Positions 19,517-24,439 of a stretch of 38,002 nt of DNA are shown here, piece after piece. The stretch covers positions 1-38,002 of the forward strand of contig JAJRQB010000132.1 in the NCBI GenBank assembly GCA_024280485.1, written 5' to 3'. Source of the DNA: Deltaproteobacteria bacterium. Lineage in GTDB: Bacteria > Desulfobacterota > Desulfuromonadia > Desulfuromonadales > Geopsychrobacteraceae. The position numbers were made by a program, and so were the translations under genes. Position 1 is the stretch's first letter; each line of letters starts with the position of its first letter. The notes beneath the pieces were generated by a model. It was not told where the DNA came from and made no database searches. It was given only the letters and a program-made list of their open reading frames with translations.

Positions 19517-20323
19517 TCAGCCCTCCAAAAAGAAATTAATCTGCAAATTAAACGTGTGCGGACTGCTCAAGTTATCAGGTAGCTTGGCAAAAGGACTGGC
19601 TCGGCCCAATGCTTTTAATGCGGCCCTGTCAAGAGCTTTGGTTCCGCAGCTATTCACAACTTTGCTGCCTAGTAGTTCTCCTTGGCGATTAACACTGAAT
19701 TCAACCGCAACCGTACCTTGTCTGCCAGCCTTGCGCGCCATCAAAGGGTAACGTTTTACTTTGTTGATACGTTCTCTGATCAGTTTCGAATAGCTTTGGA
19801 GTCTGTTATTGTCCGCCGAGGTTGTCGCAATTTGTGCAGCACCGGTTCCTGCTTCAGACATCGATGTCACGGGGACGACTTCAGGCTCTATTGCTTGCAG
19901 ATTTTCTGATGTCTCGTACTCTGTGACCACATGCCTTTCTGGCTTGTTAACTGGGGCTTCAATTTCTTGAGGTATAAGTGCAGATTTATTATTTGGAACA
20001 ACCTCTGGTTTTGGTTCTGGTTTGAAAACTTTCTTAATAATCGGTTTTGGCTTTTGAATCGGTGGAGCCACAACCGGTTTCACCATCGGTTCTTGTATGG
20101 CCGGCTGAAGAATGATCCTCTTCTTAATCTTTGGGGCCGCTGGCATTGAAATGAGATCAACTTTGATCGTCTGAGGTAGATCCATTGTCGGCAGTGGCGC
20201 AACAATGTACAGCCCTAGGGCTAAAATCACCCCAGCGTGTGTGATAATTGAACAGCAAAAGGCCCAGCCCCAGGGATGAGCCCGAGGCTGACTTCTGTGA
20301 AGGCTGATCTCCTCCATATGCAT
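19517..20323 (-). CDS. tonB: TonB energy transducer
   Basis: TonB links the inner-membrane proton motive force to outer-membrane receptors. The 268-residue protein has a short cytoplasmic tail, one membrane segment (about 19-42), a Pro/Lys/Glu-rich periplasmic spacer (for example EPKPEVVPNN) and a C-terminal TonB domain (about 185-268). That domain carries YPLMARKAGRQGTVAVEF and ends in the usual F-x-L-x-I-x-F. It starts 4 bases after the receptor gene and is surely cotranscribed with it, so it is probably dedicated to that receptor. No exbB or exbD gene lies nearby, so these must be supplied elsewhere. The start is MHMEE or MEE. Confidence 0.92.
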   Translation of the reverse strand: MHMEEISLHRSQPRAHPWGWAFCCSIITHAGVILALGLYIVAPLPTMDLPQTIKVDLISMPAAPKIKKRIILQPAIQEPMVKPVVAPPIQKPKPIIKKVFKPEPKPEVVPNNKSALIPQEIEAPVNKPERHVVTEYETSENLQAIEPEVVPVTSMSEAGTGAAQIATTSADNNRLQSYSKLIRERINKVKRYPLMARKAGRQGTVAVEFSVNRQGELLGSKVVNSCGTKALDRAALKALGRASPFAKLPDNLSSPHTFNLQINFFLEG

Positions 20324-20327
20324 GTTC

Positions 20328-22403
20328 TTAAAAGTTGTAACTCAGGGTTGTGTAAACAAATGCTCCTACCTCGGGAACCTTAACACCTGAGGCGAAAGGA
20401 TCGCGCTGATAGGAGAGATGGGTCACGTAATAAATGTCAAACAGGTTGTTGATCCCCGCAGCCAGGGACCATTGATCCCAGTTGGCACCTGCTTTGATGT
20501 CCGTGACGGCCCAGCCAGGTGTTGTCAGTTCACTAAGATCGGGGTCTACTCGGTCTTGCCCCGCTGCAAAACGTTCTGTAATTTCTGCAAAGTATGAATC
20601 GTTGTCCCAGCGGGCACTGACAGAACCATTTAGGGGTGCTATTTCTGAGAGGGGTTGATGCTTGTCCTCATTCTCTCCGCGGACATAGGCAAGGCTGCCT
20701 CTCAGGTAAAGATCCATCGGAAACGCAAATTGAGAATTTAACTCGCCGCCCCAGAGAGTTGCGTCTACATTCTGGTATGTTTTCGCGGAGTTTCCAGTCG
20801 ATACTACAATGTCTTGGGTCAGCGTAATAAAGTCTTTCAGGGAGCTGTAGAAGACTGATGCATTAAGGAAGAAGTTGTCGCCAGTGACTTTAGCGCCGAA
20901 GTCAATTTGACGGTTAAGCGTTGAGTCGAGGTTTGGATTGCCCAGCCAGCTTGGTGCCATGGCTGCTCGGTCAAGTCCAATGTAAAGTTCTTGAGGATCT
21001 GGGGTCCTTGTGCCGAGACCGATACCGCTGAATAATTGCAGTTCTGGGGTCACCTGCCAGGCTAACTGTACATTTCCACTCGCACCAGTGAAGTCATTCT
21101 TGTTGTCCAGATTTGTCCCTGAAATATTTGTTACATACAGACTGTCTAGTCTCGCCTGCGTTAATGCGTTGGCTTCAGTCGTTGTATGATCTATCCGTGC
21201 CCCACCTTTTATTTCAAAAGAATGAGCTAACGATTGTGAATACTTGGCGAAGGCTCCAATGTTGTTGACATCAATATTCGGCAGCATTGGCTGTGGCATA
21301 TAGGTCATAAACATGGCTTCATTGACGGCGTCCCAGTTGCGATAATAGTAGTCGACACCCGTTGTTAGTTTCCCTGAGCCCAAGAGCCAGTCACCTTTAG
21401 CTTTTGCACCATAAACAGAGGTGCTTGAGCCGGTCTGCATGCTGTAAGTTTTGCCATTCATTGCCACCATCGGATTTAGTGATGATCGCCTGAATTCGTC
21501 ATGCATGAGGTGATCAACACTGTTCCAGTAGAGTTGCAAGTCTACAGCATCAACTGCAGCGTCCAGTTTGTCCGCTTTCAATGTCCAGTTTACGCGGTGG
21601 GTGCGATCATATTCTGCATCCATAAACAGGTATGGGTAGAGAACATTTTCTGCGTTCTGATAGGAGTAGCCGAGTTCACTGCGGACGTTGTTTTGCAAGT
21701 TGTACCCACCCTTGATCCAGGCGGTATGGATTTCGTACGCATTTGAATCAAGGTCGATGACGTAGCTACGTGGTGACGTGGCAGGATAGACCTCGATCTG
21801 TCGGCTGCCATCACCCGTATTTGGCGAATGTGAAGATTTATAAGCATATCCTCCTAAGATGTCACCAGTTTCTGATCCCATAGACGCAGTCGCCGAAGTG
21901 TCTATCAGGCTGAAAGATCCTGCGGTAAGACTCACATTTACAGCAGGCCTCTGCGGCGGTTGTTTGGAAATAGCATTGACCATGCCGCCCAAACTTCCGG
22001 GGTTCTCTAGGTCATATGGTCCCTTGATAACTTTGATCTGCTCAACCTCTGCAAAGTCAAAATGAAATGAGGGTGGGTCCATTCTCGACGGACAGCCTCC
22101 ATAGAGGCGGACCCCGTCGAGAAAAACATTGATGTCGTCGCCTTGTAGCCCGCGCAGGACGATATCGTTAGCAATGGCTCCCTTGTTGACGCTGTTGAGG
22201 CCGGGTAGGGATTCAAGTGCTTCGCCAAGGTCGCGTGCCGGACTTTCCATAACCTCATGAATTGTCAGGGATTCCTCGGTTGGTGTCTGACGCTCTGCAC
22301 GAATGTTGATATCATCAAGTATCGTTGTTGCTGAAAGACCGGGGCTGGCAAGTAGGATGACAAGTAATAAGGGTAGGATGATCTGTTTGTGAAGGCGTAA
22401 CAT
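20328..22403 (-). CDS. TonB-dependent receptor, OprC/NosA-like, probable copper uptake
   Basis: This is an outer-membrane beta-barrel receptor of 691 residues with a signal peptide (MLRLHKQIILPLLLVILLASPGLSA). A plug domain (about 45-150) and a 22-strand barrel follow, ending in aromatic YNF. The plug contains GGCPSRMDPP. C104 and M108 form a C-x-x-x-M pair like the copper ligands of Pseudomonas OprC. The barrel contains DHLMHDEF, with H298 and M300 matching the OprC H-x-M pair. These motifs point to copper as substrate. The start was set at the ATG with AGGAGGG upstream, and the longer frame lacks a signal sequence. tonB follows by 4 bases, and a DeoR/NosL-like regulator is divergent. Confidence 0.88.
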   Translation of the reverse strand: MLRLHKQIILPLLLVILLASPGLSATTILDDINIRAERQTPTEESLTIHEVMESPARDLGEALESLPGLNSVNKGAIANDIVLRGLQGDDINVFLDGVRLYGGCPSRMDPPSFHFDFAEVEQIKVIKGPYDLENPGSLGGMVNAISKQPPQRPAVNVSLTAGSFSLIDTSATASMGSETGDILGGYAYKSSHSPNTGDGSRQIEVYPATSPRSYVIDLDSNAYEIHTAWIKGGYNLQNNVRSELGYSYQNAENVLYPYLFMDAEYDRTHRVNWTLKADKLDAAVDAVDLQLYWNSVDHLMHDEFRRSSLNPMVAMNGKTYSMQTGSSTSVYGAKAKGDWLLGSGKLTTGVDYYYRNWDAVNEAMFMTYMPQPMLPNIDVNNIGAFAKYSQSLAHSFEIKGGARIDHTTTEANALTQARLDSLYVTNISGTNLDNKNDFTGASGNVQLAWQVTPELQLFSGIGLGTRTPDPQELYIGLDRAAMAPSWLGNPNLDSTLNRQIDFGAKVTGDNFFLNASVFYSSLKDFITLTQDIVVSTGNSAKTYQNVDATLWGGELNSQFAFPMDLYLRGSLAYVRGENEDKHQPLSEIAPLNGSVSARWDNDSYFAEITERFAAGQDRVDPDLSELTTPGWAVTDIKAGANWDQWSLAAGINNLFDIYYVTHLSYQRDPFASGVKVPEVGAFVYTTLSYNF

Positions 22404-22524
22404 GGCTCCCTCCTGTTGATGTTTTGTTGGGTGTTTTGGACTGTGGTGCTCCAAAGCACTGTAAATAAGAAATAATTGTTGACCTTTTCACTCCGGTTAT
22501 GGGAAGAGATAAACAAGCAATGTT

Positions 22525-22538
22525 ATTGTTAGAACAAT
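22525..22538. promoter_or_regulatory. Candidate operator between receptor and divergent regulator
   Basis: ATTGTT-AG-AACAAT is a perfect 14-base dyad in the 242-base gap shared by the divergent receptor and regulator genes. A further ATTGTT half-site occurs at 22475-22480, nearer the receptor start. Placement fits a binding site for the DeoR-type regulator. Function is inferred. Confidence 0.45.
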
Positions 22539-22645
22539 TTATAACCTTTATGGTCATGATTTGAGTAGAATTTAACAGCGTTTGGTTCGAAGTGCAACAT
22601 TTTTGTGTTTTTATATTAACAAGTGAATGTAATTAGTGAGGACAG

Positions 22646-23287
22646 ATGACTTCTAGTGAAAGACGGAAGATGATCCTGGCGAGGTTGCAGACGGACGGCA
22701 ACCTTCAGATCACCGATTTAGCGGGGGATTTTCAGGTCTCTAAGATGACGATCCATCGAGACTTTGTCATCCTAGAAGAGAAGGGAATGCTGAAGAGAAT
22801 TCATGGAGGAGCTGTTCCGACTGCGAATTCGAGAAAAATTTCGGAGGATATCGCAAGTTTCCCTGAGAGCAGGCAAGGCGAATGTTTGATCTGTACGCGA
22901 CCTCCAACGCAGCATCTTCTTTATACGTTGACAGGGAAAAATGGTGAACAGCGGCAGGCATGTTGCCCACACTGTGGAATCTCGGCACACATTCTTTATG
23001 GTGAAAATATCATGATGGCATTCACCGCTGATTATCTGACAGGCAAATTGCACGCGGCACAAAATTCATATTTTCTGCTTGGCAGTGTCGCCGCTCCCTG
23101 TTGCCACCCTTCGATTTTGACCTTTGAAGATGAACAAATGGTGCACCGTTTTCAAACTGGATTTGGAGGGACTGTTGGTGGGCTGAATGATGCCATTAAG
23201 TATCTGCGGGAAGCGATGATTTTAGATCCTGAAAAAGATGGGTGCCCTCACTGCGCAACAGCACTCAAAAAGGGACCAACTCTTTAA
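22646..23287 (+). CDS. DeoR-type regulator fused to a Cys-rich NosL-like domain
   Basis: The protein has 213 residues. Residues 1-58 are a DeoR-type winged helix (ERRKMILARLQ, ITDLAGDFQVSKMTIHRDFVILEEKGMLKRIHGGA). The usual DeoR sugar-phosphate domain is absent. Instead, residues about 78-205 hold nine Cys: C80-x-x-C83, C106, C107-x-x-C110, the C152-C153-H motif and C200-x-x-C203. They also hold a segment (AFTADYLTGKLHAAQNSYFLLGS, then a GG-containing tail) that matches the pattern of NosL, a copper-binding lipoprotein. It is divergent from the OprC-like receptor, so it is a candidate copper-responsive regulator. Metal binding and target are inferred. Its stop abuts the convergent DUF362 gene. 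Confidence 0.78.
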   Translation: MTSSERRKMILARLQTDGNLQITDLAGDFQVSKMTIHRDFVILEEKGMLKRIHGGAVPTANSRKISEDIASFPESRQGECLICTRPPTQHLLYTLTGKNGEQRQACCPHCGISAHILYGENIMMAFTADYLTGKLHAAQNSYFLLGSVAAPCCHPSILTFEDEQMVHRFQTGFGGTVGGLNDAIKYLREAMILDPEKDGCPHCATALKKGPTL

Positions 23288-24439
23288 TCAGCGTTTGTAA
23301 TACTGGGTCAGTCTGAGAAGAGAGCCTTGTCGGGTCACTAAGGCCCCCTGAGGGCAGAGTTCCTGGCAACAGAAGCAGCGGATGCACTTTTTGTAATCGA
23401 TTTGTAAGCGTCGCTTTGCGATTGACATTGCCTCTGGGGGACAGTGTTTTACGCAAATTTCGCAACGGTTGCAGAGGCTGTGATCGGGGCTCGGCTGTGC
23501 GGTTAGTGCTTGCTTGAGCATGCGTTGTATGAAATCTGGTATGCGTCCGTTGATGTCGGTGTTTTTAGCTGCTTTGAAATCAACGATCCGTAGCTCTTCC
23601 AGATCGTCCCCAAGTAATTCTACTTCACTCAGCAGTGCGCCACTGCGTTTGGTGTCTATCGCCATTTTCTGCGTCCAGGATTGATCTGGCTTCATCCCTA
23701 CCACTTCGGTCGCAACCGCATCGACTGCCACAGGGTTGGTGCCGGCAATAAGGGTCCCGATCTGTCTCGGGTCACCGCTGCCCGGACCGTCTCCCTCCAT
23801 ACCGACTACAGCATCAACAATCGATAATGATGGCTTAAGCTGTTCGCAAAGTTCGAGTAGCATCAGGGCAAACAACGCTTTGTCACTGCCCGCTTGTAGA
23901 TGCAATTGCGGCTTGCGGAGCCCGACTATGGCACCGAACATGTTCTTTACCGCACAGGTCAAACCCATCATCTGGTGTGTTTTAAGTTTCGGCAGGTTGA
24001 TGACAACCTCAGCCTCAAGTAACTCTCGGGCAACTTCGAGCTCTTGAAATGTACGTCCACGTGGATGGATCGTGACCGATTCTACGAAGGGGGTAAAGAC
24101 GATCCCCAGTTCTTCGACCACATCCATAATCCCGCATTTCCGTGCAACGTTTTCGGCGCTGCCAATCCCGGGAGAATCGCCAAGGTAGACAATTCCTCCT
24201 GCAGCCTGAACCAGCTGTGCAACGGCACGGATTATTTCTGGATGGGTTGTAACAGCTTTCTCTGGTGGCTTGCCAGCGAGGAGGTTTGGTTTGAGCAGGA
24301 CCTTCTGGCCGGGCTTGACAAAGTTCTCTATGCCGCCCAGGGGTTCAAGGAGTTGAACAATTGCTGTGAGGGTTTTTTTCGGGGAGTAGTCGGAAAGTGC
24401 CTGCAGGGTTACGCGATTATTCTCGACCGGCTTCGACAT
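23288..24439 (-). CDS. DUF362 protein with two 4Fe-4S clusters
   Basis: This 383-residue protein has a DUF362 domain (about 1-310), with VLLKPNLLAGKPPEKAVTTHPE near the start and LPKLKTHQMMGLTCAVKNMFG centrally. A C-terminal ferredoxin domain follows with two four-Cys motifs, C-x-x-C-x-x-C-x-x-x-C in CNRCEICVKHCP and CIRCFCCQELCP. It should be a cytoplasmic iron-sulfur protein. DUF362 proteins are common in anaerobes, but their reaction is not settled. The gene ends one base from the convergent regulator stop. It is 1 base after the YjbQ gene, so it is in an operon with YjbQ and the hydrolase. Confidence 0.88.
   Translation of the reverse strand: MSKPVENNRVTLQALSDYSPKKTLTAIVQLLEPLGGIENFVKPGQKVLLKPNLLAGKPPEKAVTTHPEIIRAVAQLVQAAGGIVYLGDSPGIGSAENVARKCGIMDVVEELGIVFTPFVESVTIHPRGRTFQELEVARELLEAEVVINLPKLKTHQMMGLTCAVKNMFGAIVGLRKPQLHLQAGSDKALFALMLLELCEQLKPSLSIVDAVVGMEGDGPGSGDPRQIGTLIAGTNPVAVDAVATEVVGMKPDQSWTQKMAIDTKRSGALLSEVELLGDDLEELRIVDFKAAKNTDINGRIPDFIQRMLKQALTAQPSPDHSLCNRCEICVKHCPPEAMSIAKRRLQIDYKKCIRCFCCQELCPQGALVTRQGSLLRLTQYYKR

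Follow-up and report, generated by a model that had tools for sequence, protein, structure and literature searches.

A YcnK-type regulator divergent from an OprC-like receptor gene and tonB in a Geopsychrobacteraceae bacterium

The 38,002-nucleotide stretch of DNA analyzed here (the window), from a bacterium of the family Geopsychrobacteraceae (Desulfuromonadales), carries a divergent gene pair: a regulator with a DeoR-type helix-turn-helix (HTH) and a predicted NosL fold, akin to YcnK of Bacillus, lies opposite a gene for an OprC-like TonB-dependent receptor that is followed by tonB. The receptor retains the copper-ligand motif of OprC, the linkage of the two genes is conserved among related genomes and a palindrome, TGTTA-N6-TAACA, is conserved upstream of the regulator genes. 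We consider it likely that this YcnK-type repressor controls the receptor and tonB in response to cytoplasmic copper.

The divergent locus and its receptor

19517..20323, minus strand: tonB, 268 aa (based on a Pfam TonB_C match, 2.1e-15, and ORF coordinates)
20328..22403, minus strand: OprC-like TonB-dependent receptor, 691 aa, with C104-x3-M108 and H298-x-M300
22404..22645, no strand: divergent intergenic region, 242 bp from start codon to start codon
22521..22536, no strand: operator-like site 1, TGTTATTGTTAGAACA, one mismatch to TGTTA-N6-TAACA
22606..22621, no strand: operator-like site 2, TGTTTTTATATTAACA, one mismatch, 24 bases before the regulator ATG
22646..23287, plus strand: YcnK-type regulator, 213 aa, with a DeoR-type HTH (residues 6-57), a NosL-type domain (residues ~75-190) and a C-terminal CPHC tail

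The receptor open reading frame (bp 20328-22454, minus strand) begins with TTG, and the ATG at bp 22403 is its likely start, giving a protein of 691 aa; the starts of the divergent pair lie at bp 22646 (plus strand) and bp 22403 (minus strand). Pfam identifies the protein as a TonB-dependent receptor with plug and barrel, and a phmmer search against PDB structures returned OprC as its best relative. In the phmmer alignment GGCPSRMD of the receptor is paired with GACPNRMD of OprC and DHLMHDEF with DHIM-DNF, and C104, M108, H298 and M300 (691-aa numbering) map onto the CxxxM-HxM copper ligands given for OprC in the available text of PMC8610252. All four residues are kept in each of the seven receptors aligned, and both motifs were found at all nine receptor loci recovered by genome search. 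The initial annotation had likened C104/M108 and H298/M300 to the copper site of OprC and placed tonB 4 bases behind the receptor; its residue positions are right in the 691-aa numbering, and the coordinates of the two genes (bp 20328 and bp 20323) agree with the spacing.

Because the receptor scores 233.6 bits against TIGR01778 (TonB-copper), below the curated cut-off of 472.45, it is named here as OprC-like and not as an OprC equivalog. Its structure model was poor (pLDDT 55.0, built from 7 sequences, plug unresolved) and was kept out of all structure searches. A promoter scan of bp 22380-22680 returned no match. On the other side of the regulator, bp 23288-24439 hold a 383-aa ORF convergent to it, with ferredoxin-like Cys clusters near the C-terminus (by eye); the cluster to which this ORF belongs has members close to the regulator in 8 of 59 loci, the window counted.

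Domains and kin of the regulator

HTH_DeoR (PF08220, 2.2e-15) covers residues 6-57 of the regulator, and the DeoR-type models of NCBIfam cover its N-terminal part only (up to residue 68). The protein differs from the classical DeoR sugar regulators in that no Pfam match to their sugar-phosphate sensor domain was obtained. A plain HMM search with Pfam NosL (PF05573) gave no match to the window regulator as a single sequence. However, when a profile of 13 close regulator homologues (window included) was aligned by hhalign with a profile of 23 NosL-domain sequences, the probability was 99.3 and the score 112.8, against scores of 15.24 or less for 20 column-shuffled control profiles. A profile of 51 regulator homologues found NosL 7og7 as the best PDB sequence (4.9e-5), and 44 of 51 family members matched PF05573 individually (E 0.01 or better). 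With the AlphaFold2 model of the regulator (pLDDT 84.7), Foldseek ranked NosL first (3.6e-5), and VIA-align superposed model residues 75-190 on 7og7 with a Z of 14.8 and an rmsd of 2.4 over 113 residues. Because the profile and structure comparisons show NosL, we take the single-sequence miss to be a limit of sensitivity, and because profile, predicted fold and family Pfam matches agree, the fusion is real: judged from sequence and model, the regulator combines a DeoR-type HTH and a NosL-type domain in one protein.

These results bear out the earlier reading of the protein as a DeoR-type HTH joined to a nine-Cys domain with no sugar-phosphate domain, and the predicted fold matches NosL as had been supposed. 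The Pfam NosL check that accompanied that reading failed for the window sequence taken alone and succeeded at the level of the hhalign profiles and the family members.

Although it contains a NosL-type domain, the regulator is not itself a NosL, as it is not an exported lipoprotein. NosL chaperones share the fold of residues 75-190, whereas the window regulator begins with the HTH to which the domain is fused, shows no signal peptide at its N-terminus (by eye) and has, in its second half, CC-x-PS where the best-scoring NosL rows show GPMG. One NosL row (L042) also has CC: GGCCEP replaces its Met motif and resembles the CC-x-PS of the regulators, and this protein may be an intermediate type.

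The nine cysteines in residues 78-205 are C80, C83, C106, C107, C110, C152, C153, C200 and C203. In an alignment of 58 rows (window included, fragment L111 excluded), C80, C83, C107, C110, C152 and C153 are kept in all 58 and C106 in 57. The Cys pairs, whose loss in homologues had been named as evidence against the copper-sensor proposal, are therefore conserved. As the motifs PCCxPS and RFQxGFGG served as seeds of the homologue scan, the conservation of C152/C153 is partly selected for; with this caveat, the conservation of seven of the nine Cys in the aligned sequences exceeds chance.

The scan of genome contigs returned 58 loci, from taxa that include Desulfuromonadia, other Thermodesulfobacteriota, Chloroflexota, a cyanobacterium, an Aquificota bin and Bacillaceae. 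The homologue of Bacillus inaquosorum (L108) consists of HTH_DeoR and NosL (25.5 bits versus a cut-off of 24), and the next two genes encode a CopC-CopD-YtkA protein and then a DUF1775 protein; according to the neighbour clusters, other Bacillus loci have the same three gene families in the same order. A search with the L108 protein matches bp 22658-23203 of the window at 29% identity, and the window regulator is approximately 26-29% identical to the Bacillus homologues and has the same seven Cys. Presumably YcnK-type proteins as such carry a NosL domain, as the domain match in L108 suggests. The identification of the Bacillus homologues as YcnK rests on gene order, the strains compared being close relatives of B. 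subtilis.

In the available text of three papers (PMC8424229, PMC12154828 and PMC13344008), the ycnKJI products are described as a copper-dependent repressor (YcnK), an importer (YcnJ) and a DUF1775 protein (YcnI), and YcnK is called a helix-turn-helix copper repressor with no mention there of a NosL domain. On this comparison of sequences, the window regulator is YcnK-type. The initial annotation had proposed a sensor unlike CueR, CsoR and CopY. It does differ from these, but it is not a new class of copper sensor, since YcnK, already published as a copper-responsive repressor, has the same HTH-NosL architecture and Cys set.

The window regulator resembles YcnK in its DeoR-type HTH, NosL-type domain and seven Cys and in adjoining a copper-uptake gene. 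It differs in that the targets of YcnK are CopC-CopD-YtkA and DUF1775 genes of a Gram-positive host while the window has a receptor and tonB, and in that the Cys-rich tail of the Bacillus proteins is unlike its own CPHC tail. The ycnK-ycnJ-ycnI order is absent at the window; we regard this order as a feature of the Bacillus operon and not as a requirement of the family. Elsewhere, a CopC/CopD and PCuAC neighbour cluster (three members identified) lies within 7 kb of the regulator in 22 of 59 loci, and an SCO1-type cluster (one member identified) in 5 of 59. At three Chloroflexota loci (L074, L076 and L087) the regulator is preceded by a gene of a single cluster, of which the L076 member is a cytochrome c552 (PF02335).

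A second HTH plus NosL-like regulator, assigned to clade B, is found in the same genome (G000:C96:3382-3936, L124). It lies divergent to the genes for an HTH-cupin protein and a methylmalonyl-CoA mutase, which are 87% and 91% identical to their counterparts at L089, and the arrangement recurs at clade-B loci L080 and L089. As this paralogue adjoins methylmalonyl-CoA mutase genes, not all kin of the regulator are tied to copper genes.

It is conceivable that the Cys-rich domain, of NosL/MerB fold, senses zinc, mercury, silver or the thiol redox state, and that such a signal governs the receptor. The NosL fold is common to MerB, and MerB2 was the next structural match to the regulator model; the seven Cys kept in the regulator family compare with two to six, mostly four, in the 23 NosL rows; and clade B adjoins methylmalonyl-CoA mutase rather than copper genes. 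Against this, copper genes (CopC-CopD-YtkA, PCuAC and SCO1) adjoin the regulator in other phyla, and at the window the neighbour is an OprC-type receptor. We regard a signal other than copper as unlikely.

Linkage to the receptor and the conserved palindrome

The linkage survey covered 60 related genomes, own genome included, with a receptor threshold of E 1e-60. Regulator matches were obtained in 30 of the 60, many through the HTH alone; a full-length clade-A regulator was present in 13 and a receptor in 8. In 7 of the 8 receptor genomes, spread over several families, the clade-A regulator and the receptor occur together, always divergent and approximately 0.2 to 2 kb apart (Fisher p 3.2e-5 for co-occurrence among these 60 genomes, which are related to one another). 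This neighbourhood survey, proposed with the first annotation, thus found the receptor linkage kept in relatives. In the eighth genome (G031) the receptor lies on a 3.9-kb contig without a regulator beside it, and no receptor reached E 1e-60 in 6 of the 13 genomes with a clade-A regulator.

Counted by locus, the receptor is present at 8 of 20 clade-A loci (a count that includes the window and the partial locus L070), with tonB, exbB or exbD between regulator and receptor at some of them. The other 12 show no receptor beside the regulator; less than 3 kb of upstream sequence is available at three (L056, L062 and L071), while at nine (L055, L057-L060, L066, L067, L069 and L072) the receptor is absent from 3 to 10 kb. 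For example, the regulator of Geothermobacter hydrogeniphilus HR-1 (L063) has a receptor and that of Malonomonas rubra DSM 5091 (L058) does not. On a tree of 52 rows, from which eight near copies, partial or misbinned sequences were dropped (L060, L071, L072, L103, L104, L107, L109 and L111), the receptor-adjacent label needs 5 changes, which means that the linkage was gained or lost repeatedly. The contig of L060 is labelled Chloroflexi; it has a clade-A regulator with Desulfuromonadia flanking families and is probably a binning error.

The genome of the window has a second OprC-like receptor (G000:C81:2224-4284; L123:2209-4284), 55% identical to that of the window and followed by tonB, solute-binding protein and ABC transporter genes. 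This locus possibly encodes another importer of copper or of a copper complex.

TGTTA-N6-TAACA, with at most one mismatch, occurs upstream of 21 of 23 clade-A regulators, at 29 sites versus a shuffle mean of 0.15, in a set of 300-bp regions (211 bases only for L062) of which several rows are close kin. The two regulators without a site are those of L056 and L062. The pattern was chosen after viewing this same upstream set, and a gap scan and a leave-genus-out matrix served as controls. In the gap scan of the half-sites, gap 6 gave 29 sites, gap 3 gave 11 and every other gap from 2 to 11 gave 4 or fewer. The leave-genus-out matrix, built from 22 sites in 18 regions with the genus of the window excluded, ranked site 2 best and site 1 second in the whole 38 kb (18.3 and 16.0; next 11.8). 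A count in the window alone is weak, giving 3 matches at up to one mismatch (the third being at bp 10197) versus 0.67 expected, with 3 or more in 4 of 100 shuffles. Clade-A loci have sites whether or not the receptor is there, in keeping with autoregulation. No site was found upstream of the 9 Bacillaceae regulators examined, a further difference between YcnK and the window regulator. Based on these sequence comparisons, the palindrome is a conserved putative operator common to the clade-A orthologues.

The genome of the window has no overall excess of the palindrome: allowing one mismatch, it contains 54 sites, versus 146 for the reversed control pattern, and no wider regulon emerged from them. 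Among the matches listed, 49 of the 54 sites were scored (C149:10197, although listed, was excluded), and the window sites rank first and third of these with a matrix trained with them included. Other single sites in this genome were judged by ORF only. A COX1-family oxidase gene (taken for ccoN), with a site 73 bases before its ATG, was considered as a regulon member. It was dropped because no comparable site was found at the loci of 14 relatives; the best other site scored 9.6 versus 15.6, in a genome without a clade-A regulator.

Were the regulator to act mainly on itself or on distant genes, the receptor would be a bystander. The 12 clade-A loci without a receptor agree with this, as most of those examined retain the palindrome at the regulator's own promoter. 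However, the pair stands side by side in nearly all receptor genomes, the two receptors with no regulator beside them (the C81 copy and that of G031) have no strong site at their promoters, and no conserved distant target was found among the sites of this genome and the oxidase loci of the 14 relatives. A bystander receptor is thus very unlikely, and control of the receptor by the adjoining regulator is the explanation that we retain.

Proposed copper response and its context

By analogy with YcnK and OprC, the signal would be copper, the mode of control repression and the cargo copper, and the window regulator would itself be the copper sensor. It would bind the palindromes in the shared 242-bp promoter region and repress the operon of receptor and tonB as well as, probably, its own gene. 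The cytoplasmic NosL-type domain would bind Cu(I) via C80/C83, C106/C107/C110 and C152/C153, and repression would hold in copper-replete cells. When cytoplasmic copper falls, repression would be lifted, the OprC-like receptor and TonB would be made and the receptor would carry ionic copper across the outer membrane.

The sign of the response is the weakest step, because the papers differ on copper and YcnK. In the available text of PMC8424229, PMC12154828 and PMC13344008, ycnKJI expression is described as raised in copper starvation and lowered in replete cells; one of these papers calls YcnK a copper-dependent repressor and yet proposes that Cu(I) antagonizes it. The opposite logic, in which the regulator activates the receptor or copper frees it from DNA, draws on that proposal, and the sign is unreadable from sequence. 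Nevertheless, repression of an uptake gene that is released by copper would increase import in excess copper, and the reported ycnKJI response also argues against it, so that we find the opposite logic improbable and prefer repression in copper-replete cells.

The receptor resembles OprC/NosA of Pseudomonas in its plug and barrel and its CxxxM and HxM ligands, but differs in scoring below the TIGR01778 cut-off and in being followed by its own tonB. In addition, oprC of P. aeruginosa is reported under CueR in the available text of PMC7558416, and not under a YcnK-type protein as proposed here. In the literature searched, we found no report of a YcnK-type regulator paired with an OprC-type receptor and tonB, or of the TGTTA-N6-TAACA palindrome for such regulators. 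The sensor is probably no new invention, whereas its pairing with an OprC-like importer looks new.

There is perhaps an even chance that the NosL-type domain serves generally as a cytoplasmic module for copper sensing, which became fused to a DeoR HTH and was then wired to CopCD in Bacillus, to PCuAC and SCO proteins in Chloroflexota and, in Desulfuromonadia, where the palindrome would have been acquired, to an OprC-type receptor with TonB and in some cases also ExbBD.

Little is known about the tuning of ionic copper import in Gram-negative bacteria. A repressor that has a defined palindrome and adjoins an OprC-type receptor provides a directly testable switch. If the proposal is true, this would be the first case of YcnK-type control of an outer-membrane copper receptor, and it would extend YcnK-type sensing from Bacillus to the Desulfuromonadia.
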